From IMG/VR virus record IMGVR_UViG_3300030329_003926, positions 1 through 25,101 of that record: 25,101 nucleotides of DNA. One strand, written 5' to 3'. Both the position numbers and the translations under genes were made by a program. Within the stretch, counting starts at the first letter, position 1. The number at the start of each line of letters is the position of its first letter. This document shows positions 10,828-24,669 of the stretch, piece after piece. The notes under the pieces were generated by a model. The model did no database searches, was not told the DNA's origin, and saw nothing but the letters and a program-made list of their open reading frames with translations. This stretch comes from a virus.

Positions 10828-11084
10828 AGAGCCACCTCTTCTTCTTCAATTGCTTCTTCAGTAGCGACCACATCATCCACAGAAGGCTGCTCTTCACCGG
10901 TGATGCTTTGAATAAGCGCATTAGCATACTGCAAAGCGCCAGCATTTGTAGCCAAGTTATTACGAACTGCCGCCAACTGTTCCTCAAGCTGAGTGCGAGT
11001 AGCGGTCAACTGAGATACAGCTTCGGTTAGCTGCTTCTGCTGATCTTGCAAGGTTTCCAAACTTACAGAATTATTATCTGCCAT
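10824..11084 (-). CDS. Small acidic coiled-coil protein of unknown function
   Basis: 86 aa. Residues about 8-55 form a heptad-rich helix (LETLQDQQKQLTEAVSQLTA), strongly predicted by eye as a coiled coil. The C-terminal 20 residues are very acidic (EEAIEEEEVAL). It has no cysteine and no signal or membrane segment. Its ATG overlaps the stop of the glycosyltransferase gene by one base (TAATG), with a strong GGAGG just upstream, so it is translated with the cassette. It is the last gene before the sheath. A small structural or scaffold role, or an oligomerisation partner, is possible; no family is recognised. Confidence 0.75.
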   Translation of the reverse strand: MADNNSVSLETLQDQQKQLTEAVSQLTATRTQLEEQLAAVRNNLATNAGALQYANALIQSITGEEQPSVDDVVATEEAIEEEEVAL

Positions 11085-11842
11085 TACTTCCTCCTTTTGT
11101 TATTTAAAAAATCCATCGGTATTCGATAGTATTCAGTACCATACTTATCATAACCAGCTTTAAAAGCTTCGTATGCTTCTTCTAGCTTACCAATAAACTC
11201 CGCAGATACTCCAAGATAATAGTAACTTTGGTAATCATCTGGGAATCTACGCAATCTATCTTTCGCTAACTTATAATAATAAGGTGCCTTAACCTTCATA
11301 TTTAGCTTGCCCCAATGATGTATAACCAAATCTGTCTTTATATACTTTAATTTCGCCCTACTTAAAGAGTTATAAAGTGTTTCATGCGTATTAAACTCAA
11401 AAAATATTCTTGGGTCGTTACGAAACAGCCGAATACAGCCATCATCAACTGCGTTAGTAAAACCTTTGTATTCTTCTACCTTCTTAACACCAAATTCTTC
11501 CCGTCCTACCGGAAGATATCCTCGTTGATGAATTTGAAAGGCATCTATACCCTCCATCTTAACTGCTCTACTTATTTTTTCTAAGTTCTCCGAATCTATT
11601 TCCTCATCCGTATCCATGCGAAAGATCCAGTCAGATTCAACCAACCTTAAACCTGCGTTAAGTGGAGCAGAGTAATCATCGAACCACGGGAAATAGAGAA
11701 CCTTGTATCTACCGCTTTGCTTAACCTGCTTGTTGCCCGTGATTACGATGACTACTTCACTTACTACACTCTCTACTGCTTTAATAATAGTTTGAACAGA
11801 TTTAAACTCGTCCTTACACATTATCAATAGAGCGATGGACAT
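11084..11842 (-). CDS. GT2-family (GT-A fold) glycosyltransferase
   Basis: 252 aa. Transfers a sugar from a nucleotide-sugar donor to an acceptor that cannot be told from sequence. The N-terminus MSIALLIMCKDEFKSVQTII is the nucleotide-binding strand and loop of GT2 enzymes. YSAPLNAGL is followed by a DTDEEID segment (about residues 77-83) that supplies the DxD metal/nucleotide motif. VIHHWGKL near residue 175 is common in this subgroup, as is a helical TPR-like C-terminus (YQSYYYLGVSAEFIGKLEEA). The arrangement resembles small bacteriocin or flagellin glycosyltransferases rather than processive synthases, and no membrane helix is present. It overlaps the kinase gene by 29 nt and the next gene by 1 nt, so it belongs to the same operon. 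Confidence 0.85.
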   Translation of the reverse strand: MSIALLIMCKDEFKSVQTIIKAVESVVSEVVIVITGNKQVKQSGRYKVLYFPWFDDYSAPLNAGLRLVESDWIFRMDTDEEIDSENLEKISRAVKMEGIDAFQIHQRGYLPVGREEFGVKKVEEYKGFTNAVDDGCIRLFRNDPRIFFEFNTHETLYNSLSRAKLKYIKTDLVIHHWGKLNMKVKAPYYYKLAKDRLRRFPDDYQSYYYLGVSAEFIGKLEEAYEAFKAGYDKYGTEYYRIPMDFLNNKRRK

Positions 11843-12755
11843 ATAGCTTACCCCCAGTGCCTTTTACTATGTTTGTTTTAGTGTTTCTATAAATTTCATC
11901 AGACATGCTCTTACTAACTACATCAATAGTTCCGAGCTGCTGTGTAGAGAGATGCGCCACAATGTCGCCATACACTAACGCCGGTAGATATGCCTCCCCC
12001 TGCCACCGCGCCATATACGACACGAACCCTGCTAAAAAAGAATCGCCAGCACCAATACTATCTATAAAGTTATTATCCTTATCTTTAGTAAATATAACAT
12101 TTACACCCAACTCTTTAATGTAAGCTACACAACCTTTATCACCTAAAGTTACAATAACATTAGAACCTGTTTTTTCAAAAATATCTTTTGAAATCATTGT
12201 AGAGTCACCATTACGATACTCTACTTTCATAAAATCTTGAGCTGTTTTTAAGTTAACTTTCAACCAATCTATATTGTTATGAGAGTCCCAAATATGATTG
12301 GTATCAACGAAACTAATAGCTCCCTTAAGATGACATTCCTCCCTTATACGAACAACATCAGATTTTTTTATAGTTCCCTTATGGTAGTCAGAAACAATAA
12401 CAAAATCTCCATGTTCTATGCTATCTATACACCTATCAATAACGCTTTCATCATATCCTACTCCATCATTTACATCTTCCCTTAAGAAGAATCTATCGTC
12501 TACATAATGTCTTACTTTCGTAGGATGGTCAATCCAGCCGGGAGGAAGTTCATCAAAGCACCCAGTATAAAAAAACTGAACCTCTTTGCCGCATAAAGAT
12601 TCAATGTTACGAACAAGATTGCCGGCCCCGCCATTTACAGACTTCTCTTCTAGTAACTCTACCACAGGAGCATTGTCATTAGCAGGGTCGGTTCTTGTTT
12701 GTTTATAAAACCTATAGCGATCAATCAAATAATCGCCAACTACAATTATTTTCAC
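11814..12755 (-). CDS. PfkB-family sugar kinase, similar to the HldE/RfaE heptose-7-phosphate kinase domain
   Basis: 313 aa from a GTG start (12753-12755) that overlaps the histone-like gene's stop. PfkB kinases phosphorylate sugars with ATP. VVGDYLIDRYRF followed by DPANDNAPVVE matches the HldE opening (GD-x-hydrophobic-D-R-Y ... PEAPVPV), where the sugar is bound. NGGAGNLVRNI (41-51) is the GGAxN motif, and DSIGAGDSFLAGF carries the GxGD catalytic loop with Asp at 238. The overall length equals the kinase half of bifunctional HldE; the nucleotidyltransferase half is absent. In bacteria HldE makes ADP-heptose for LPS. Its presence beside a GT9-like transferase supports a heptose or heptose-like pathway, but the true substrate could be another sugar phosphate. 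A host enzyme would be needed for the missing activation step. Confidence 0.85.
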   Translation of the reverse strand: MKIIVVGDYLIDRYRFYKQTRTDPANDNAPVVELLEEKSVNGGAGNLVRNIESLCGKEVQFFYTGCFDELPPGWIDHPTKVRHYVDDRFFLREDVNDGVGYDESVIDRCIDSIEHGDFVIVSDYHKGTIKKSDVVRIREECHLKGAISFVDTNHIWDSHNNIDWLKVNLKTAQDFMKVEYRNGDSTMISKDIFEKTGSNVIVTLGDKGCVAYIKELGVNVIFTKDKDNNFIDSIGAGDSFLAGFVSYMARWQGEAYLPALVYGDIVAHLSTQQLGTIDVVSKSMSDEIYRNTKTNIVKGTGGKLYVHRSIDNV

Positions 12756-12928: not shown

Positions 12929-13492
12929 TTAATCACCTCCTTTGGTAACGTAATAATTCTCTAACACTAAAGCATCAATGTTAGAGTTAGTAAATGTTCT
13001 TACTGCATCTCTTGGTGATTCCACAATCGGCTCTCCACCAAGATTAAACGATGTATTTAATAAAACAGATACTCCTATCTTATCTTTAATACATTTTAGT
13101 AAATTATAAACTTTACTGTTTTGTTCTTCATTGACCGTTTGTATTCTAGCGGACCCATCTTCATGTGTTATTCCCGGTAGATTATCAACTTTTACCTTAT
13201 AAGACATCAACATATATGAGTTAGCGTCAGTTTCTAAAAGGTCGAAATAGTTGCTGGCTTCGTCTTCAGCAACGATTGGAGCATAGGGTCTCCATGGCTC
13301 CCTATACTTTACAAAGTCGTTTAGATGGGATTTGGCAAGCTCCCAGCAGGGGTTGGCGAATATGCTTCGGTGGCCCAGTGCGCGAGGCCCATATTCGCTG
13401 GCTCCTTGAAACCATCCTACTACTTTATTATTAGAAATGTCTTCAGCTACTCTATCAAGTAGCTCATCATCAGCTAGCTTCTCGTAAAGCAT
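12929..13492 (-). CDS. O-carbamoyltransferase, C-terminal subunit of a split NodU/CmcH-type enzyme
   Basis: 187 aa. It contains the YrdC-like C-terminal domain of the family: KVVGWFQGASEYGPRALGHR (23-42) and VLLNTSFNLGGEPIVESPRD around 143-162. In TobZ-type enzymes this domain makes carbamoyl-AMP from carbamoyl phosphate and ATP. The Kae1-like half is coded by the gene immediately upstream. The start ATG lies within that gene, 23 nt overlapping, with GAGGA about 8 nt before it. Aligned to the neighbouring 600-aa enzyme it begins exactly where the linker between the two domains ends (MLYEKLADDELL versus LPYERLESKEIV). I read it as a deliberate two-subunit arrangement, not decay, because both chains are otherwise intact. 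Confidence 0.85.
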   Translation of the reverse strand: MLYEKLADDELLDRVAEDISNNKVVGWFQGASEYGPRALGHRSIFANPCWELAKSHLNDFVKYREPWRPYAPIVAEDEASNYFDLLETDANSYMLMSYKVKVDNLPGITHEDGSARIQTVNEEQNSKVYNLLKCIKDKIGVSVLLNTSFNLGGEPIVESPRDAVRTFTNSNIDALVLENYYVTKGGD

Positions 13493-14567
13493 CTTCTATT
13501 TCCTCATCGTTATAAAGTTTACCTGTGAAACCCAAATAATCATCCATCGTTATTACTTTTTCTTTTTGAGATACTTCATAAAGCGCTCCACCAAAACACA
13601 AACCCGAATCATTAGCAGCTGGAAAGATATGAATGTCTTTGAAAAAGCCGGGTCGCCAACGAGACTTTAGAAGAGCTGCATTAGCTAATACATTCAAACC
13701 ACAACCGCCACCTATACAAAGATAAGGAGCCTTGATGGTTAGAGTAGCAAAAAACTTTATAAGTATTTCTTCAAACTGATGTTGTAGCCATGCAGAAACA
13801 TCTTTAGCGTCATACCTATCTAGTTGTGCGTCAGTAGGCATTTTATGGTCATAGATGTAGGGAAAATAAAAACCATCATTGTTTATCTTAAACAAGTCTG
13901 GTAAATCAATTTTATCTTTATTTCCATAAGCAGATAACCCCATTATTTTCCCGGGAGCTGTTTCCATAAAAACATAAGGATTATCAATAGATTCTGCTTT
14001 CTTTGACTCCATTTTGCTATAACACCAACGAGAGATGTTATTATAAACTTGACCTAGATTGAAAGTAGTATGTTCTTTTACTCCATTGATAGAATGATAA
14101 ACCACATAAACACCTTTTTGTTTATCTCCTATCGCATAAAGTCCTGTTTCATAACCACCGCCAGGAAAACTATTACCCGCTCCATCAAAAGTAAGAATAC
14201 TTGCCTTCTCAAAAGGACTGGTATAAAAAGTAGCACAAGCATGAGCTTGATGATGGTCACAAAAACTTACCTTTGCTTGTGGAAACTCTCTACTCAATAC
14301 ATCTTGGATAGCTGTATGCCTAGAAGGAGAATGAACATTCTCTACATACACTACTATATCTACTTCATCCCTAGTGATTTCTGCTTCATCTAAAACATAG
14401 TCAATAGATAGGTCGGGAAAGTTGCCATCATACTTTTCTCTAGTAAGTCGCTCTTCACTAATAGTAGAGACATGGGTTCCATCAACCCATAATGAAGCGC
14501 CAGCAGAATGAAGCCATGCGTCATCGGGTGCCCAACCACAGCATCCATAAAGACCGATTATTTTCAT
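13470..14567 (-). CDS. O-carbamoyltransferase, N-terminal subunit of a split NodU/CmcH-type enzyme
   Basis: 365 aa. It carries the Kae1/ASKHA-like domain, which transfers carbamoyl from carbamoyl-AMP to a hydroxyl, usually of a sugar. Visible: SEERLTREKYDG (38-49), the metal-site motif CDHHQAHA (103-110), FDGAGN (near 127), and CIGGGCGLNVLANAALL near 287. It ends GKLYNDEEIEDALREAS, the point where the one-piece paralogue enters its linker. Its ATG overlaps the stop of the 600-aa gene by 4 nt (ATGA), so the two enzymes are co-translated. N-terminal sequence differs strongly from the 600-aa paralogue (an extra insertion around GWAPDDAWLHSAG), so it is probably an old duplication or a separately acquired homologue with a different acceptor. 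Confidence 0.85.
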   Translation of the reverse strand: MKIIGLYGCCGWAPDDAWLHSAGASLWVDGTHVSTISEERLTREKYDGNFPDLSIDYVLDEAEITRDEVDIVVYVENVHSPSRHTAIQDVLSREFPQAKVSFCDHHQAHACATFYTSPFEKASILTFDGAGNSFPGGGYETGLYAIGDKQKGVYVVYHSINGVKEHTTFNLGQVYNNISRWCYSKMESKKAESIDNPYVFMETAPGKIMGLSAYGNKDKIDLPDLFKINNDGFYFPYIYDHKMPTDAQLDRYDAKDVSAWLQHQFEEILIKFFATLTIKAPYLCIGGGCGLNVLANAALLKSRWRPGFFKDIHIFPAANDSGLCFGGALYEVSQKEKVITMDDYLGFTGKLYNDEEIEDALREAS

Positions 14568-16374: not shown

Positions 16375-17529
16375 CTATAGGATTATTTTATTTTTATTGT
16401 CTTCCTTATTTAGTGTTGATTCTAACTTTTCTACTTCTCGCAGCACTTGTTTTACTGTTATTGACTTCATACAGGAATAACCTCTGTCACATACCCAACT
16501 TTGCCCCTTCGGGTTTACATCAAACACTGAAGGTCGCCAACAACCAATAATGTCACAGCTACTTTTATTCCAAATGTTGATGTTATGCTCATGCCCCCAC
16601 ACATTCGGGCTAACACTACCCCACAACACAATGCCTCTCTTTTTGATAGCAGCAGCAAGGTGAGGAACATTATTATCAATGCTCATAAAGAACTTACACT
16701 TTGGATGCTCTAACATTTGCAGAATAGGATTGAGGTTGTCTACCTTTATACTCTGCACATTAGGTATGTCTGGATTGTCTTGACCATTAGATACTTGAAC
16801 AAAAGAGTATTTACTTTTTAGCTTATCTACCAGTTCAGCCCAACGCTGTAAAGACCAAACCTTGAATGTTCTATAGTTGATGGGTTGAGCATAATCTTGT
16901 GGGTTTCTATCCATTCCTAAATGTAACAATACAACTGGTTTAGAAGTAGACCTCATAAAACTGGATACTTGATTGTTTTGTTCCGTAACCTTGAGCATAG
17001 GTGGGCCACCATCATACTCTAAACCCATTACCTTCCCATAATGATGACTAATAAAGCTCTTTTTATCATTCTTGTATTTATGTTGATGAATAAGTTTGGT
17101 AAGAGCAAAGCCATACTCAATAGAGTAAGCTCGTTCCCAGTTATTATTGAGAAGTTCCCACAACTCTAACTGATTAGGGATTTTACTATTTTTGAACTGC
17201 TCCAACCAGTGTGTAAAGGTTGGGTGTTCCATACCGGCTTCGCCTATACTCCAAAGACCAGGATCATTGGGATAACCACCATGACCTTCGGGAATCTGAA
17301 TACCATAAACTTGTTGGTTAGATAAAGCAGCAGAAACCATATGCCCTATAAGAGTATTATCACATACTAAAATAGGATGCGTATTACCATCTTGTTTTCT
17401 TTTGCGGATAAGAGTGCGAATGAAAGCAGTTTGAAGAATCCTTGCTCCCATACCGCCCTGAAGAATAAGAAAATAAACCTTATCTTTTGGGCTGCTAACC
17501 TGTATTTGTTGATTCTGTTGCTGATTCAT
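16375..17529 (-). CDS. GT9-like (heptosyltransferase-type) glycosyltransferase
   Basis: 384 aa. After a Gln-rich tail (MNQQQNQQIQ), VYFLILQGGMGARILQTAFI (18-37) resembles the N-terminal GDxxxxTP-like loop of ADP-heptose:LPS heptosyltransferases. The C-terminal Rossmann domain contains MSIDNNVPHLAAAIKKRGIV around 284-303 and WGSVSPNVWGHE, the S/T-D...HLAAA...LfG pattern by which GT9 enzymes bind the donor. A four-cysteine tail (CDIIGCW ... VCDRGYSC) is also seen in GT9 relatives. It is a soluble GT-B enzyme and probably adds a heptose or similar sugar. It fits the HldE-like kinase in the same operon. AAAGGG lies before the ATG, and a hairpin with a promoter-like sequence lies upstream. Confidence 0.75.
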   Translation of the reverse strand: MNQQQNQQIQVSSPKDKVYFLILQGGMGARILQTAFIRTLIRKRKQDGNTHPILVCDNTLIGHMVSAALSNQQVYGIQIPEGHGGYPNDPGLWSIGEAGMEHPTFTHWLEQFKNSKIPNQLELWELLNNNWERAYSIEYGFALTKLIHQHKYKNDKKSFISHHYGKVMGLEYDGGPPMLKVTEQNNQVSSFMRSTSKPVVLLHLGMDRNPQDYAQPINYRTFKVWSLQRWAELVDKLKSKYSFVQVSNGQDNPDIPNVQSIKVDNLNPILQMLEHPKCKFFMSIDNNVPHLAAAIKKRGIVLWGSVSPNVWGHEHNINIWNKSSCDIIGCWRPSVFDVNPKGQSWVCDRGYSCMKSITVKQVLREVEKLESTLNKEDNKNKIIL

Positions 17530-17580: not shown

Positions 17581-17991
17581 CTAAGAACTGTTTATTATAA
17601 ACCCGCCTCTTGGTCTTTTTATCAAACGCGTTATGCTTTCGCGATGGACTACTCTAGCATAGTCACATTTGTTTTCACAAGATGTAGCAATAATACAATC
17701 TTTGGGCACTTGATTGCCATACTGCGATATTCTTCTAATAGATAAATCAGTAAGACCTTGTGTTTTATTGGTGGTGATTATTTCCTTTTCATTGAGTTGA
17801 AAATAATCACCCGCCAAAGCTAATACTTTTTTTATTCTCTTTTCAGTATTACCATAGATGTATAAAACAAAATCACCAATCTCTATGTCTTCAAACTCAA
17901 AATCTACAAGACCATCAACTTGTTCTCCATGAGATAACTCTGGCTCTAAACAAGTTCCCTCTAAGGTTATTCTAGAATACCTCGTCACCAT
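17581..17991 (-). CDS. S26 (signal peptidase)-like protein with Cys at the nucleophile position
   Basis: 136 aa. The S26 layout can be followed through the chain. RITLEGTCLEPELSHGEQVD (7-26) matches the box GxSMxPTL..GD but has Cys14 (codon TGT) instead of Ser. KRIKKVLALAGDYFQLN (51-67) matches the catalytic-lysine box KRVVGLPGD with Lys54 retained. VPKDCIIATSCENKCDYARV (94-113) corresponds to the GDNxxxSxDSR box, again with Cys. It has no N-terminal membrane anchor and should be cytosolic. It may be a thiol protease, a processing enzyme for a virion protein, or an inactive binder. Its ATG overlaps the stop of the 1149-aa fibre (TAATG), so it is coupled to that gene. Homology is fairly clear by motif order; activity is unknown. 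Confidence 0.7.
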   Translation of the reverse strand: MVTRYSRITLEGTCLEPELSHGEQVDGLVDFEFEDIEIGDFVLYIYGNTEKRIKKVLALAGDYFQLNEKEIITTNKTQGLTDLSIRRISQYGNQVPKDCIIATSCENKCDYARVVHRESITRLIKRPRGGFIINSS

Positions 17992-20900
17992 TATGAAATA
18001 GTGCCACTAGATTTCCAGAAGGTTATGAATACAATACCAGCACCGCCATTTCCTCCGGCATATCCTGCGCTTGAGCCTCGACCTCCACCACCTCCACCAG
18101 AACCTGCGCCACCGGCCTGACCGGCTTGATCCGTGTTACCGCCGTTGCCGCCTTCTCCAACCATAGAAGCACCACCGCCACCACCCCAACAGCCTCCACG
18201 ACCTCCAGGGTAACCTGCTGTACTGCCTCCATTACCAACGCATCCACCCTGAGTAGCGCCAGCACCACCACCTCCTCCAATACCTCCTTGCATCCCAGCT
18301 CCGCCGCTAATTGCATTTACATCATTAATAGTCACAGGAGAAGCGTTGGCCAATCTACCAGCATCGGTAGCTGCGAGAGAATCACACACGCCGCCTGCCC
18401 ACCAACAACACAACTCATGTTGGGTACCCTCATTGTTCATAGGTTTGCCGCTGCCTCCACCGAAACCACCCATCGACCCGGTGTTTGAAAATGCCATGCC
18501 ACCACATTGACCGCCCCAAGCACAAGCAATATTTCCGACGCCGCTAACACAAATAAAGCTGGGCTGACCCCATCCATCACCACATCCACCAGAATGAGTA
18601 GTACCACAAACTCCACCAGCACCGGCTCTAACACCTAACTCATTGCCAGGCGCAACCATAAATGCTCTTTCATGCATAGAAGTTCCTGCTCCGCCACCTC
18701 CACCACCACCACAACTATCACAACCGGCACCGCCAGCGCCACCACCAGCAACCATAGTAACAGTTATTCTACAAACTCCAGTTGGTACAGTAACATCAGT
18801 TGCAGTATTTCCACAAATACAATAAACACCCGCAATAGATTGAGCAGCTGCAACTTCATTATCCACATAAGTTTTATTAGCAATATCAGTACCAGCAGTA
18901 GGAGCATCAGCAACAGTTGCTCCTCCGAAAGTTCCTTCAGCCCCACAAACAACAGCAGATACCAGACAAGTAGCTGCATGAGCTACACCCTCAACGTCCA
19001 AAAGATGAGAAGGAGTCGCAGTACCTATGCCTACTCTATCAACACTAGCATCTAACATAAACAAGTTAGCCTCTGTATCACCTTCCATTCTTACATCGAA
19101 ATCGCCGCCAGCGTCATTAAAAATAACATTACCACCTTGAACATCCAATCTACCGCTGGGGTCATCAGTACCAATACCAACATTAGTAGCATAATATATT
19201 TCAGGACCACTAATACAAGTCCAATAACCACCAGGGCCAAATGTTAATGTATCGCTACCATCAGTGCAGATAACCTCACCTGCACTACCATCAGCCGCTG
19301 GCAGTGTATAAGCATTATTTATTTTTACTGCTCCGCTATTTACTTCTATTCTTGAGCCACCAGAATCACAAACCAGTAAGGCTGCAGCGGATGCTGCATT
19401 GGCACCTACATGAAGTGTATGTGCAGGAGTTGTGGTGCCAATGCCAACATTATCGCCAGCGGATAACTCTTTGTAATAAGCATCTTGACCATTCATTGTC
19501 CATACATCATCTGTAACACCACCACCAGAGAATGTTTGAGCATAAACTGTACCTGTAGTGCAACTATCACCTTGAACTTTGAAAATAACATCACTAGTTG
19601 TGGCGGTTCCTATACCAACACACCCAGCACTAGTAATAGTTACTCTTCTAGTATTGTTTGTCCAAAAACCTAATTCAGCCGTAGTTGCTGTGGCTAAATG
19701 TAACCCCGCAGATGCAGTAGAGTCAGCTTGAAGCAATACACCATCAGCTATTTTTTGATTAGCAGTAGTAAAAGAAGAGCTATAAGCGCCAAGAAAACCA
19801 CTAGACGTATTAGTGTTAGCTGTGAAAACAGATGCTGCTGCTGCGCCAGCGGTTTCGTTAAGAACTTTAATTGTTGATGCTGCGTTTTGATCTATATGTG
19901 CTGTTAGAAGATTGTTTGTGCCAGGGTCATTAGTCCCTATACCAACACAAGAGCTAGTAACATAAACAATATTTGTTCCCGATGACCAAAGAGAAGCGCC
20001 ACCACCCGATACACAAGCAGCAGTTATTGTGCCTGTAAAACAAGCATTACCTTGAACTCTCAAAGGAACGCCAGGTGTAGCAGTACCAATACCTACATTT
20101 TGACTAGCGTCAATATAAATAGCATTTGTTCCATCAGCGCTATTGAGTTTTAGAATACCACCAGACTCTTTTGTTCCTACTTCCATCGTAGTAGTGCTTT
20201 GAGTGTGTTTTATTTCTGCTCCTAATGCATCCGAAGCAGAGCCAAAAACCAATGACCCTGCGTTTGCGTCAGGAGTAAGAATTGAGATACCGCCAGCAGC
20301 ATTATTTTCTACAACCAGATTACATGCCCCAGAACCAGCTGCTACCGAACCTGCTGTTCCAGCATGAATATGAAGTAAGCCATCGGGAGTTTGAACACCT
20401 ACGCCTATGCACCCACCACTTGTAACAGTAGCTCTTCTAGTGCTATTTGTCCATACTCCTATTTCGTTAGTGCCTGCTGTGGCTATTTGTAATCCACCAG
20501 AGGATGTATTGAGAGATTCCAATACTACTGAATCAGCTATTTTATAATTGCTTGTTGTATATGAGCTACTATAAGAGCCAAAAGTAGCACCGCCTGCATC
20601 ACTACCTAATTGTAGTCGAGCAATTGCTCCTGTACCAGCAGTATCATTACTAACTGTAAGTGTTGTATCGCTATTTTGATCTTCTTGAACCTCAAACCTA
20701 GTGCTAGGAGTAGCGGTTCCTATGCCTATTCTATCGGTAGAGGCATCAACCATAAACAAGTTAGCTTCGGTATCGCCCTCTATTCTAAAATCAGCATCAG
20801 CACCATCTTGATTAAATATAGCTGCCCCTCTTACATCTAAAAGAGCATCAGGCGCATCTGTTCCTATGCCAAGCCGACCATTAGTATCAAATACACCACG

Positions 20901-21440
20901 CGTTACACCTGCAGTTCTAAAGCCCAACTTATGAGAAGAAGTAGTTCCCACAGAGCCGGAAGAACCCTCATTAACAATCTTGGTAGTAATACTATTGGTA
21001 GTTTCAGTAAGAATAATACCGCCCGTTGATGAATCGGCATATGCTATATCTAAAACAGAAGCTGCTGATTTTTTACCTAAACCAATCGCACCTGCGGGAG
21101 TAATAGATAATGCGTTATAATGAGTAGTTCCACCTGCGCCAGTGCAGTTAGAAATAATAAATGAATCAGACGTATTGCCTGATACAGCCAACTCCCACAT
21201 AGGTCTAGCATCATTATTAAGAAAAATAGACGCGGTGCCATTTGTGTTGGTTGTCTCAAAATAAGCTTCTACATTATTACTCGACTTCGCTGTAAATAAG
21301 CCAGTAGGTGAAACTGCTTCACCGCCTACAGCCATAGAAGTAGAAGCTGTAAAACTGGCAGCAAGAAATGAACAGCTTGTATCTAAGGCTGCTGGTTTAA
21401 CCGCCGCATCTTGGAATTGAATATCACTAACTATGGCCAT
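17991..21440 (-). CDS. Long modular tail fibre with glycine-rich adhesin tip
   Basis: 1149 aa. Residues about 1-830 are repeated trimeric fibre modules marked by VGIGTATP-like turns and L-x-VQG strands. EGDTEANLFMVDASTDRIGI near 230 recurs as EGDTEANLFMLDASVDRVGI near 800. A larger module containing YSSSYTTSNYKIADSVVLE recurs as YSSSFTTANQKIADGVLLQ. FTGTITAA-like joints separate shaft segments. From about 890 to the end is a Gly-rich domain (CDSCGGGGGGGAG, GGQCGGMAF, GGGGGGRGSSAGYAGG, final GGAGIVFITFWKSS) of the kind forming polyglycine-helix adhesin tips, which often set host range. I counted about 29 cysteines, very high for a phage fibre. GGAG precedes the ATG, and a late-promoter-like box lies 17 nt upstream. 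The receptor is unknown. Confidence 0.88.
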   Translation of the reverse strand: MAIVSDIQFQDAAVKPAALDTSCSFLAASFTASTSMAVGGEAVSPTGLFTAKSSNNVEAYFETTNTNGTASIFLNNDARPMWELAVSGNTSDSFIISNCTGAGGTTHYNALSITPAGAIGLGKKSAASVLDIAYADSSTGGIILTETTNSITTKIVNEGSSGSVGTTSSHKLGFRTAGVTRGVFDTNGRLGIGTDAPDALLDVRGAAIFNQDGADADFRIEGDTEANLFMVDASTDRIGIGTATPSTRFEVQEDQNSDTTLTVSNDTAGTGAIARLQLGSDAGGATFGSYSSSYTTSNYKIADSVVLESLNTSSGGLQIATAGTNEIGVWTNSTRRATVTSGGCIGVGVQTPDGLLHIHAGTAGSVAAGSGACNLVVENNAAGGISILTPDANAGSLVFGSASDALGAEIKHTQSTTTMEVGTKESGGILKLNSADGTNAIYIDASQNVGIGTATPGVPLRVQGNACFTGTITAACVSGGGASLWSSGTNIVYVTSSCVGIGTNDPGTNNLLTAHIDQNAASTIKVLNETAGAAAASVFTANTNTSSGFLGAYSSSFTTANQKIADGVLLQADSTASAGLHLATATTAELGFWTNNTRRVTITSAGCVGIGTATTSDVIFKVQGDSCTTGTVYAQTFSGGGVTDDVWTMNGQDAYYKELSAGDNVGIGTTTPAHTLHVGANAASAAALLVCDSGGSRIEVNSGAVKINNAYTLPAADGSAGEVICTDGSDTLTFGPGGYWTCISGPEIYYATNVGIGTDDPSGRLDVQGGNVIFNDAGGDFDVRMEGDTEANLFMLDASVDRVGIGTATPSHLLDVEGVAHAATCLVSAVVCGAEGTFGGATVADAPTAGTDIANKTYVDNEVAAAQSIAGVYCICGNTATDVTVPTGVCRITVTMVAGGGAGGAGCDSCGGGGGGGAGTSMHERAFMVAPGNELGVRAGAGGVCGTTHSGGCGDGWGQPSFICVSGVGNIACAWGGQCGGMAFSNTGSMGGFGGGSGKPMNNEGTQHELCCWWAGGVCDSLAATDAGRLANASPVTINDVNAISGGAGMQGGIGGGGGAGATQGGCVGNGGSTAGYPGGRGGCWGGGGGASMVGEGGNGGNTDQAGQAGGAGSGGGGGGRGSSAGYAGGNGGAGIVFITFWKSSGTIS

Positions 21441-21456
21441 GCAAGTATCTCCACAT

Positions 21457-21464
21457 CATTTATA
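21457..21464 (-). promoter_or_regulatory. Candidate T4-type late promoter box for the 1149-aa fibre
   Basis: The minus strand reads TATAAATG, one base from the T4 late box TATAAATA, 17 nt before the ATG. In T4 the box lies about 6 nt before the transcription start, which would give a very short leader holding GGAG. The box is embedded in an AT-rich imperfect inverted repeat (21458-21482) in an otherwise empty 79-nt gap. The match could be chance in such AT-rich DNA. Confidence 0.4.
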
Positions 21465-21519
21465 TATTGATATAATATAAATATGTTGTTATTATCGTAT
21501 CGGCTTCTTTTATATCTTT

Positions 21520-21876
21520 TTATTCTGTTTCCGCCCAAGCTGGTACATTTTCACCTATAGGCGCATTAAATTGTGATTCTATTTGATTTACTACATTAGC
21601 AGTTACCGAACCACTCCACGAATCCATCAAAGGTTGAATAAAGGCAGGCTTAGAAGCACTAAGAGTAGCCCATTCTACATAATCAGAAGCTGTCTTTGTG
21701 TCTGGGGTAGCAAAAGCAACCACCTCACCATAAATGCTTTCGTAATCACCACTAATACCCTTTACCTCCATCACCATAGAGACAGCGTAATCTGTAACCT
21801 CTGTTCCATCTCCAAGAATAGCTTTAGGCTTAACAGATACCCTATCTGTAAAAACCAATTCCCATGTTATTTCCAT
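21520..21876 (-). CDS. Small conserved-looking fibre-associated protein of unknown function
   Basis: 118 aa, starting MEITWELVFTDRVSVKPKAI, with a strong GGAGG before the ATG and the start only 3 nt after the previous fibre's stop. It is acidic, has no cysteine, no signal peptide and no membrane segment. It alternates short strands (YAVSMVMEVKGISGDYESIY) with a helix near the end (NVVNQIESQFNAPIG). It lies between two long fibres, where phages often code fibre chaperones, connectors or accessory caps. I do not recognise a family with certainty. The base composition matches the local AT-rich genes, unlike the GC-rich 84-aa gene upstream. Confidence 0.75.
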   Translation of the reverse strand: MEITWELVFTDRVSVKPKAILGDGTEVTDYAVSMVMEVKGISGDYESIYGEVVAFATPDTKTASDYVEWATLSASKPAFIQPLMDSWSGSVTANVVNQIESQFNAPIGENVPAWAETE

Positions 21877-21879
21877 TTT

Positions 21880-24669
21880 TTATTCCTCCGGAAAATCAGT
21901 TTTGCCGCCTTCAGCAGTATTTTGAATAGCGTCAAAAGCGTTACCTATCATTATAATCTTGTTGGCCTTAGAAACATTTTCATAACCAGTAACAAAATCT
22001 GGATCATCCTTATCCCATGTATTATTGAAATGAATGAAGTCATCCAACTCAGCACAAGTCATTGACTCTAGACCATTTATGTTTTCCATTTCACCTCTGT
22101 ATTCCCAACGCTCAGCACATAATCTACCATCATCACAAGCACCGGGCCTATCACCTTGAGCTATAGTGCATAAAATGTGTTTATCAATTCTTCTACCATT
22201 GACTATCCAATGGAAACATTGAGTTTGATTACCCGCCTCATCAGTGCAAACACAAAAGCTATTATTACTAAATACATTTTCGTTATCTAGTTTTATAGTT
22301 AGGTTAGAAATACCACCCACTGGAGTAAGCTGTACTGTAGCATCTGTTTTTTCTGCTAATGCTTCAAAATACTCTGGTAAGTCAACCTTTACTGCTCCAC
22401 TATCTAACTGGGACGAACCTCTATAATAAACACCATACTCTGGACCCTCCAATGTTGAGTGAACCAAATGCATCATGTTGTATTTGTTAGGTGACTCATC
22501 ACTAGCCAATGGATGTTCTATTTCAAAGTTTTTAGTAGGTGAGCCAATGCACGTAGAAGCACAAAGACAATAAGGAGTACAAAAACAACCCAACAGACAT
22601 AATCCACGAAGATGAACAAATCCTATAGTAGTAACAGCATTATTCTCTGAAGCATAGATCACCACCCGCCCACAAGAATCTTTTGATTCTACGCACCCAT
22701 AAATAGCACCTTGTGGCTTCCACCAATCAGCATTACCATTAGCAAATGTGAGCTGACCAGCAACACAACTATTGCAAGAGCAACCAGTAATACTTGCAAA
22801 TGCCTGAGCCCCATATAGAGTTGTGTTGCCTGAACTATCCAAATGAAATCCATAATAGTTACATATAGTTGGGCCGAAATGCAGCACCGAAGTTCCCATA
22901 CCATGCAATCCCCAACAATACTTATTGCAAGTGCTTCCATCTTTTCCGTATCTCCAAGTAAAACCGTCACTTGGACCCATATTCATGTTAAGAAGAGAAC
23001 ATGGCGAGGTCGTGCCAATGCCAACTCTGCCAGAAGAGTCGATCCGCATACGCTCAGTAGTAGTTGCCGCCCCATCTGCCGTTGTGCGAAAAATCAACCT
23101 ACCCGGCATATCATTTGACCCCGGCGTGCCGTCCACCTCGGCCCATATCTCAGCACCCAAGCTGTTTACATCTGTTCCGTCATCACCAGCAAACGCGATA
23201 TACCCCAATGCGTCACCGTCTTGCAGTATGGTATAACACCCCACAGTGGCATTGCGCGAGTGGGCCATTGTGAATACACCGGGGTATTGGTTCTCCCGAT
23301 GCGAGTGTATGGCAAAGTTGGCAAACGTGTCATCACCCGCCAGTTGCAACCCGTTACCTGTGCCCGACGATACGCCCAGACTGGAATCGGTACCAATAAG
23401 AAGTTGTCCGCTGGCGCTGAGCCGCATACGCTCTGTAGCTTGCGTGTCGAACCTGAGATACCCATCAGCGCCATCCTTTCCTCTCATATTCGCGGTGTTG
23501 CTCGACCCCCACAGCACAAGGCCGTCATCCGCAAATGTCAACTGAGAACTCGTCAGCGCAGCTACGCCACCAACCGTAAGCGTAGTGCCATCAAAGGTCA
23601 GGTTGGCCTCGCCACATAATGCGTTTGAACCAGTAACTGTTGCTATTGTGTTATCTGTTGAGCCAGCTAAAGTTACGCCCGCTGAAACAGTTGCCCATTG
23701 TAATGCAGCACTTCCATTGGTACATAATACTTGACCTGCGCTTCCATCAGCCGTAGGATGACAAATACCATCAAGGATCACAATTCCACTACCATTTGGC
23801 GTTATTGGAATATTTCCGTTACTAGCTGAGATAATACTATTTCCATTTACATCTAGGTTTCCACCAAGCTGTGGAGAAGTATCACTACATAAGTCAGTAT
23901 TAACAGTAGCCCATTGTAAAGCAGCACTTCCATTGGTGCATAATACCTGTCCCGCTGAGCCATCAGCAGTTGGGTGGCAAATACCATCAATAATAGCAAT
24001 ACCAGAGCCATTTGGCGTTATAGGAATGTTACCATTAGAAGCAGAGACAATACTGTTACCATTAACATCTAGGTTTCCGCCAAGTTGTGGAGAAGTGTCT
24101 GATACTAGACTCTCGCCGACAGCTGCACTAGATAAAGTGATACAACATTGAGTTCCATCAGCTTCTCTAACCTTCAAAAGAGCATTAGTTGCACATACCG
24201 TAACATCTGTGGCATTAGAGCCTGAGTTGTCGGTAGCAGTAACCGCAGATCCAACAAAGTTAAGACAAGTACGAGAGGCTAGAGCGGTTCCTTCGTCAGC
24301 TATAGTGTGACCGCTACTAGCAGCATCAGCAAAAGCAAGCGCACCACTACCATCAGTACAAATAAGCTGACCGGCAGAACCATCAGAAGTTGGTAACACA
24401 TACTCACTACCAATACATAAAGCAGGTGCCACTACCTTTACTGTCGCACAAAGATCACCCGTAGCTTTCAGTATTGTTCCATCGAAAGTAAGGTTACTTT
24501 CAGAGGTCACTGCGCTTGTACCATTTCCTGTTATAAGTTGATTAGAGCCAATAGTAGCTATGCCAGTCCCACCGTGAGCTATACCCAGAGTATCTCCAGA
24601 AGCAAACTCCGCTAATCCTGTTAGTGATGAACCATCATAACCACCTTTTACTGGTACTTTATCTGCCAT
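21880..24669 (-). CDS. Long modular tail fibre, cysteine-rich, with mosaic centre
   Basis: 929 aa. Typical phage fibre modules: SSLTGL and GDTLGIAHGGTGIATIGSNQ near the start, two tandem 66-aa repeats (about 191-328), VGIGTTSP near 558. Around 712-765 comes a conserved block (NFEIEHPLAS, LVHSTLEGPEYGVYYRG) that I associate with the C-terminal heads of marine-phage fibres. The last 160 residues are globular and end in an acidic helical tail. No S74 self-cleaving domain was seen. About 36 cysteines are present, with dense groups such as GCSCNSC and CLLGCFCTPYCLCASTC around 625-700. Residues about 354-560 are coded by GC-richer DNA and contain almost no cysteine, pointing to recombination. AAGGA precedes the ATG. 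It shares ICTDGS-type modules with the 1149-aa fibre. Confidence 0.88.
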   Translation of the reverse strand: MADKVPVKGGYDGSSLTGLAEFASGDTLGIAHGGTGIATIGSNQLITGNGTSAVTSESNLTFDGTILKATGDLCATVKVVAPALCIGSEYVLPTSDGSAGQLICTDGSGALAFADAASSGHTIADEGTALASRTCLNFVGSAVTATDNSGSNATDVTVCATNALLKVREADGTQCCITLSSAAVGESLVSDTSPQLGGNLDVNGNSIVSASNGNIPITPNGSGIAIIDGICHPTADGSAGQVLCTNGSAALQWATVNTDLCSDTSPQLGGNLDVNGNSIISASNGNIPITPNGSGIVILDGICHPTADGSAGQVLCTNGSAALQWATVSAGVTLAGSTDNTIATVTGSNALCGEANLTFDGTTLTVGGVAALTSSQLTFADDGLVLWGSSNTANMRGKDGADGYLRFDTQATERMRLSASGQLLIGTDSSLGVSSGTGNGLQLAGDDTFANFAIHSHRENQYPGVFTMAHSRNATVGCYTILQDGDALGYIAFAGDDGTDVNSLGAEIWAEVDGTPGSNDMPGRLIFRTTADGAATTTERMRIDSSGRVGIGTTSPCSLLNMNMGPSDGFTWRYGKDGSTCNKYCWGLHGMGTSVLHFGPTICNYYGFHLDSSGNTTLYGAQAFASITGCSCNSCVAGQLTFANGNADWWKPQGAIYGCVESKDSCGRVVIYASENNAVTTIGFVHLRGLCLLGCFCTPYCLCASTCIGSPTKNFEIEHPLASDESPNKYNMMHLVHSTLEGPEYGVYYRGSSQLDSGAVKVDLPEYFEALAEKTDATVQLTPVGGISNLTIKLDNENVFSNNSFCVCTDEAGNQTQCFHWIVNGRRIDKHILCTIAQGDRPGACDDGRLCAERWEYRGEMENINGLESMTCAELDDFIHFNNTWDKDDPDFVTGYENVSKANKIIMIGNAFDAIQNTAEGGKTDFPEE
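22990..23610 (-). other. GC-rich mosaic block inside the 929-aa fibre gene
   Basis: Two 60-base lines counted by hand here are 53% and 58% GC, against 25-43% in two lines just downstream (lower coordinates) in the same gene. The encoded part (about residues 354-560) ends at a VGIGTTSP turn, a motif repeated through the fibres that could serve as a recombination junction. Only one cysteine (VGCY) falls in the block. The reading frame is intact through both edges. Confidence 0.7.
23686..24099 (-). repeat. Tandem 66-aa repeats in the 929-aa fibre (period 216 bp)
   Basis: Copy 1 at 23902-24099 and copy 2 at 23686-23883, each 198 bp, are separated by 18 bp (NTDLCS). Each runs from DTSPQLGGNLDVNGNSI through GICHPTADGSAGQVLCTNGS to LQWATV. 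The two protein copies differ at only about three places (V/I, A/V, I/L), while the DNA shows more changes, mostly at third positions. This means that the protein is under selection and the duplication is not very recent. Confidence 0.9.

Follow-up and report, generated by a model that had tools for sequence, protein, structure and literature searches.

Background

Enzymatic protein S-glycosylation is established mainly in a handful of bacteriocins. In glycocins (SunS and the pallidocin system), dedicated glycosyltransferases (GTs) glycosylate cysteine (Cys), a GT2 enzyme adding the sugar (PMC6405829); S-glycosides are described as resistant to glycosidases (PMC7020787). The BAHT enzymes (TibC/AAH) are GT9-type, carry a four-Cys iron finger near the C-terminus, and glycosylate the repetitive, beta-structured adhesins beside which they are encoded at many sites, with Ser as acceptor (PMC4358343). 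In Agrobacterium phages Milano and 7-7-1, virion proteins are unusually Cys-rich (2.1-2.6%), with enrichment in capsid, sheath, tube and baseplate and with Cys paired at fixed sites (PMC10811340, PMC12796354). No earlier report of Cys-rich or S-glycosylated tail fibres was found among the open-access papers searched. Here, two Cys-rich tail fibres, fibA and fibB, and the sugar genes beside them are described from the complete 25,101-base IMG/VR record IMGVR_UViG_3300030329_003926 (G000), the tail operon of a myovirus, which is referred to at its full length as the window.

The window shares with Milano and 7-7-1 the unusual Cys content of virion proteins; however, only distal fibres are affected, the Cys sites turn over, and GT genes adjoin. 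As in the glycocin systems, a GT2 is encoded, and its only NCBIfam match is SunS; yet it would have to act on fibres about 1000 amino acids (aa) long with tens of sites rather than on a small bacteriocin, and this GT2 is missing from the most Cys-rich relatives, the invariant enzyme being a GT9. That GT9 resembles BAHT in fold class, in its position beside repetitive fibres and in its four C-terminal Cys, and the top PDB fold matches to its low-confidence model include TibC, whereas the Cys spacing differs (C-x4-C-x16-C-x5-C in the window, C-x2-C-x15-C-x11-C in BAHT). On the sequence comparisons reported below, we narrowly favour the reading in which Cys at the fibre surface accept S-linked glycans from the fibre-adjacent enzymes.

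Cysteine enrichment in fibA and fibB

Cys makes up 2.5% of fibA (29 of 1149 aa) and 3.9% of fibB (36 of 929), versus 0.79% of the remaining window proteins (47 of 5918 aa; binomial P = 1e-7 for fibA and 2e-14 for fibB). The sheath of the window has 2 Cys in 802 aa and its tape measure none in 1114; the counts given in an initial annotation of this DNA proved exact on recount. As a fibre control, 88 open reading frames (ORFs) homologous to residues 161-330 of fibB were collected from other viral contigs. Together these contain 74 Cys in 49,247 aa (0.15%; median 0.14%, maximum 0.76%), giving a 17-26-fold enrichment in fibA and fibB. TGY codons are raised in frame 0 only (2.55 versus 0.16 per 100 codons), without a comparable difference in the other frames, and a DNA-level motif is therefore ruled out as their source. 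The enrichment is a genuine protein-level trait.

At seven Cys sites of fibB, the residue in the control homologues is S, T, N, K, Q or V, with K most frequent at LCTNGS and S at ICHPTADG; the initial annotation, which had named Thr, Ser or Ala, was thus roughly right about replacement of such residues. Relative to the controls, the Cys-rich fibres are depleted in Ser, Thr, Asn and Asp. The motifs quoted previously are all present in fibA and fibB (LCTNGS, twice; ICTDGS; GCSCNSC; CLLGCFCTPYC; CDSCGGGG), and Cys at ±1 to ±4 from another Cys is enriched about 2-fold.

Cysteine-rich fibres among relatives

Counting Cys in the fibres of relatives, a check proposed in the initial annotation, was carried out on a clade retrieved by sheath and GT9 scans, and clade fibres are rich: 28 Cys in 602 aa in L025, 30/1000 and 26/793 in L062, 29/1216 and 20/820 in L069, 32/765, 43/766 and 35/716 in L066, and 33/915 and 47/827 in G004. 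The clade maximum, 6.7%, is found in L065, which starts inside the last of these fibres (39 Cys in the visible 584 aa). Fibre Cys content is intermediate in L061, L063 and L048 and poor in L030 (4/822). The non-fibre tail proteins of these relatives contain 0-4 (sheath), 1-3 (tube) and 0-1 (tape measure) Cys. Within G001 and G004, the fibres most distant from the sugar genes are Cys-poor (0/1104, 2/1308 and 1/851 in G001; 1/856 in G004), and nearer ones are richer. Normal Cys content in relatives, which the initial annotation had held to argue against a special role, does not describe the clade and applies only to fibre homologues outside it. The fibre of HTVC115P shares a 61% identical stretch with fibB and has 1 Cys in 752 aa. 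In immuto and Mel-JY01, which are outgroups by sheath, the fibres are poor in Cys and a sugar operon of this kind is lacking. An IMG/VR scan and a tblastn search against phages gave no matches to fibA. The phage family with Cys-rich fibres is mostly marine, its fibres carrying 10 to 40 times the usual Cys count.

Between Cys-rich homologous fibres of 45-54% identity, Cys is kept at 64 of 130 sites (49%). This is about the overall identity, and it is therefore density, and not position, that is conserved.

Independent lineages and the placement of cysteine

Independent cases were sought over IMG/VR with two DNA patterns that require Cys within common fibre modules and are blind to neighbouring genes. 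Outside the clade, fibres exceeding 2% Cys were recovered in 19 loci representing nine lineages. Fibre Cys reaches 7.8% in unrelated phages, and the giant fibres of G012, G013, G015 and G016 contain up to 228 Cys in 4280 aa. In the 17-residue repeats of such unrelated giant fibres, 363 Cys occur in 313 repeats, at positions -5, +1, +2, +5, +6, +9 and +11, with few at +8 and +10. The eight positions without any Cys (-4 to 0, +3, +4 and +7) are those of conserved and hydrophobic residues. Pairing of Cys within these repeats (n = 313) is at chance level only, and Cys at the same position in adjacent coils show no excess over chance. Disulphide pairing or metal ladders should leave a signature, and because none is seen in the repeats, both readings are weakened. 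An AlphaFold2 model of the repeats is a beta-solenoid (pLDDT 81) whose PDB matches, although weak, are nearly all beta-solenoids; the repeats are not recognised as a YadA head by Pfam, and 'YadA-like' describes a sequence impression only. In another phage (G010; IMGVR 3300033145_001890, L179-L181), the first approximately 360 residues of the fibre are hub-like and Cys-free, the remainder contains 26 Cys, and next to the fibre lies a 309-aa protein with 18 Cys and then a GT9.

Glycosyltransferases beside the fibres

Only the GT9 adjoining the fibres and the NodU-type carbamoyltransferase are always present in the clade where the DNA reaches them. Outside the clade, with Cys-rich loci chosen by Cys-based scans blind to GT, a hidden Markov model of the GT9 family matched 3 of 19 Cys-rich loci versus 0 of 116 Cys-poor fibre loci (P = 0.002). 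Any GT within 3 kb (Pfam; GT9, GT2, GT34) was present at 7 of the 19 and 1 of the 116, respectively (P = 2.7e-6). On whole contigs, GT9 also adjoins the fibres of G017 and G020, and GT2 those of G015.

The converse search, with out-of-clade GT9 proteins as queries against 50,697 named phage records, matched only HTVC111P, HTVC112P and AG-345-L05. In the first two, cultured pelagiphages, a 'putative glycosyl transferase' lies directly after a fibre with 12 Cys in 811 aa (1.48%) and 14 in 756 (1.85%), respectively. These are the top two by Cys content of 12 homologous named-phage fibres (the others have 0-1.1%; P = 0.015), and the repeat positions of their Cys match those of the giant Cys-rich fibres. 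HTVC111P and HTVC112P thus resemble the window type in having a GT9-like gene directly after a tail fibre of raised Cys content, but differ in their lower density (1.5-1.9%), in the fibre fold region, and in having no carbamoyltransferase cluster in the region shown.

The window GT9 fits the GT-B fold of its class: it scores 22.4 bits against Pfam PF01075 (cut-off 22), and its model (pLDDT 57) matches 3tov, WaaC and TibC by Foldseek. It is unmatched by TIGR04414 (BAHT) at an E-value of 0.1, as is the GT9 gene of each of eight clade records, and a direct BAHT identity was rejected. We know of no S-transfer activity in this GT9 family. The window GT2 scores 25.5 bits against the SunS model TIGR04195, far under its cut-off of 350, and a SunS-like GT2 was rejected as universal enzyme given its absence from L048, L059, L065 and L066. 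In the 109-kb relative G001, an 806-aa multi-domain ORF that stands apart from the fibre-adjacent GT9 (L168, G001:C1:18182-18556) weakly matches TIGR04414 (TibC/AAH; E 1e-6).

Proposed mechanism and alternatives

In the mechanism proposed here, solvent-exposed polar positions of the fibres would have been seeded with many single Cys, to which GTs encoded beside the fibres would attach S-linked glycans. The candidates invariant in the clade are the GT9 and the NodU-type carbamoyltransferase, the latter putatively O-carbamoylating the sugar. A GT2 and a heptose-kinase-like PfkB, found often though not invariably, would assist. The resulting glycan coat would shield the fibres or tune adsorption. 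We infer four elements of this mechanism from sequence: that the fibres are substrates of these enzymes, that the sugar is placed on Cys, which sugar is used, and what the coat does. The observations behind them are the enrichment, its restriction to fibres, conservation of density without position, the exclusive use of variable repeat positions and the absence of pairing in unrelated phages sharing the trait, and the association with GTs in both search directions. More broadly, and as a tentative proposal that we hold to be somewhat short of probable, several unrelated, mostly marine phage lineages may have independently evolved fibres with a dense, protein-wide glycan coat, in which tens to hundreds of surface Cys would be S-glycosylated by fibre-adjacent GTs, often of one GT9 family. 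The S-glycosylation suggested in the initial annotation gains indirect support, in that GTs flank Cys-rich and not Cys-poor fibres in several unrelated lineages and the reverse search agrees.

The main rival is that intra- and inter-chain disulphides lock the fibre trimers together once they have been released into oxic water, as in Milano, whose structural proteins have 2.1% Cys with disulphides mapped (PMC10811340), and 7-7-1, whose capsid proteins have 2.58% (PMC12796354). Local clusters such as CLLGCFCTPYC and GCSCNSC could pair, those of fibB, to which this rival applies most, lying beyond the reach of the repeat test, and the 2-fold excess of neighbouring Cys fits pairing as well. However, the Cys of Milano are also in the sheath, tube and baseplate, whereas the sheath, tube and tape measure of the relatives have hardly any, and neither such enrichment nor fixed pairs were found here, the latter on the evidence of 313 repeats of unrelated fibres and of turnover in the clade. 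Cys positions are conserved no better than average residues, repeat-fibre Cys are independent, single and unpaired, and a search for oxidative folding genes in six mostly fragmentary clade records found no DsbA, and thioredoxin in only one. Disulphides also leave the GT association unexplained, and we regard them as a rather unlikely explanation. A role in binding metal ions or in reacting with host-surface thiols, as docking or adhesion devices, is highly improbable: the dense CxCxxC and CxxC motifs resemble metal ligands, but no conserved ligand geometry is apparent, positions turn over, Cys in adjacent coils coincide at chance, most Cys are isolated, and no metal-handling partner gene was seen. 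The disulphides or metal sites put forward in the initial annotation are accordingly weakened by average turnover and by unpaired repeat Cys, the latter drawn from the repeats of other phages. That the high Cys content has no function and reflects relaxed or drifting composition is disfavoured and hardly credible; fibre modules are indeed shuffled and fast-evolving, but enrichment recurs in independent lineages, only in fibres and only at variable positions, and homologous modules elsewhere have 0.15% Cys.

It is quite improbable that the Cys bear another modification, such as a lipid, or that the GTs act on Ser, Thr or Asn while Cys serve another purpose. Within this GT9 class, BAHT enzymes add heptose to Ser (PMC4358343), the Cys of the clade GT9 itself form a finger-like four-Cys motif, and sulfotransferase and carbamoyltransferase genes are present too; no evidence was found for the lipidation raised in the initial annotation. 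Fibres richer in Cys hold less Ser, Thr and Asn, and Cys-poor, Ser/Thr-rich fibres are without GTs, which together point to Cys as the acceptor. Several observations nevertheless weigh against S-glycosylation. The GTs could still act on Ser/Thr with the Cys serving otherwise. Three of the nine Cys-rich lineages (L211/L269, L217 and L280; about 2-3% Cys) have no GT in the fetched DNA, L030 has a GT9 and a Cys-poor fibre (its other fibres lie off the contig), and AG-345-L05 has a GT9 but fibres of only 0.5-1% Cys. In G026, a Cys-poor fibre-like ORF has a GT9-domain gene nearby, and a GT is therefore not sufficient; judging from these sequences, its presence is neither necessary nor sufficient for a Cys-rich fibre. 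Since the GTs come from several families (GT9, GT2 and GT34), no single Cys-specific enzyme is implied. Lineages are few, and the control loci, which average 6.8 kb against 9.7 kb for the Cys-rich loci, were counted without collapsing into lineages. The repeat-position test comes from other phages, the window fibres having too few repeats.

Should S-glycosylation prove true of fibres with as many as 228 Cys, phages would form a large and so far unused reservoir of S-glycosyltransferases, and sugars displayed by the virus would take part in the recognition between phage and host in the ocean. A Cys-rich fibre with an adjacent GT offers a simple rule for reading genomes, and a cultured test case is at hand.

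The window and accessory genes

In the window, fibA and fibB are each a single uninterrupted ORF, and profile searches matched them to the tail-fibre families phrog_9942 and phrog_18345. They are followed by the signal-peptidase (S26)-like ORF, GT9, two carbamoyltransferases (one split), PfkB and GT2 (Table 1).

Table 1. Positions of the Cys-rich fibres, their domains and the adjacent genes (window coordinates unless another record is named).
Feature	Position	Strand	Remarks
fibB, tail fibre of 929 aa with 36 Cys	21880..24669	-	phrog_9942/18345 tail fibre; modules homologous to 88 Cys-poor fibre ORFs
fibB residues 161-330, D1 repeat, copies 82% identical	23680..24189	-	module for site-by-site comparison; Cys at 175, 176, 231, 244, 261, 303, 316
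fibB residues 557-872, where Cys is densest (22 Cys)	22054..23001	-	includes 711-839 domain (phrog_17490), common to L066 fibres
fibA, tail fibre of 1149 aa with 29 Cys	17991..21440	-	phrog_9942; L025 fibre 49-60% identical
fibA residues 880-1141, Gly_rich_2 domain (PF21722), 13 Cys	18018..18803	-	PF21722 above cut-off
Signal-peptidase (S26)-like ORF, 136 aa	17581..17991	-	Cys at nucleophile position (GTCLEPEL); accessory, not kept across clade
GT9 glycosyltransferase, candidate for fibre	16375..17529	-	four invariant C-terminal Cys: C325, C330, C347, C353
NodU/CmcH-type carbamoyltransferase, 600 aa	14564..16366	-	PF02543 and PF16861 both matched; in all relatives reaching it
Second carbamoyltransferase, N-terminal half, own ORF	13470..14567	-	PF02543
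Second carbamoyltransferase, C-terminal half, own ORF	12929..13492	-	PF16861
PfkB kinase nearest RfaE domain I (heptose-7-phosphate kinase)	11814..12755	-	frequent in clade, not invariant
GT2 glycosyltransferase	11084..11842	-	sole NCBIfam match SunS S-glycosyltransferase; missing from some relatives
4280-aa fibre ORF, 228 Cys	G013 33291-46130 (L300-L301)

The thiol-type protease homologue noted in the initial annotation is real, though present in few relatives and not a core partner. S26-like proteins with Cys at the nucleophile position were found only in the window (17581-17991, GTCL), L025 (2348-2746, GDCL) and L065 (9575-9940, GNCL), and a universal partnership with the fibres was rejected on that account; a Ser version is encoded at 1820-2299 of L025. 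These proteins are possibly fibre-processing proteases. In L059, a 97-aa ORF with 9 Cys (1403-1693) lies between GT9 and the carbamoyltransferase. The split carbamoyltransferase of the window (12929-14567) has overlapping N- and C-terminal ORFs, and L025, L048 and L066 are split likewise.

Beside fibre-linked GT9 genes, a sulfotransferase was matched by Pfam at L318 10089-10904 and a sulfotransferase-like ORF was recognised by eye at L332 13699-14622, which suggests further decoration of the sugar. Two pelagiphage proteins are annotated as RTX-toxin/lysine acyltransferase (L330 3015-3401 and L331 3225-3632); the gene in the corresponding position of CRP-831 is named DUF6950, and the toxin-related name may be a misannotation.

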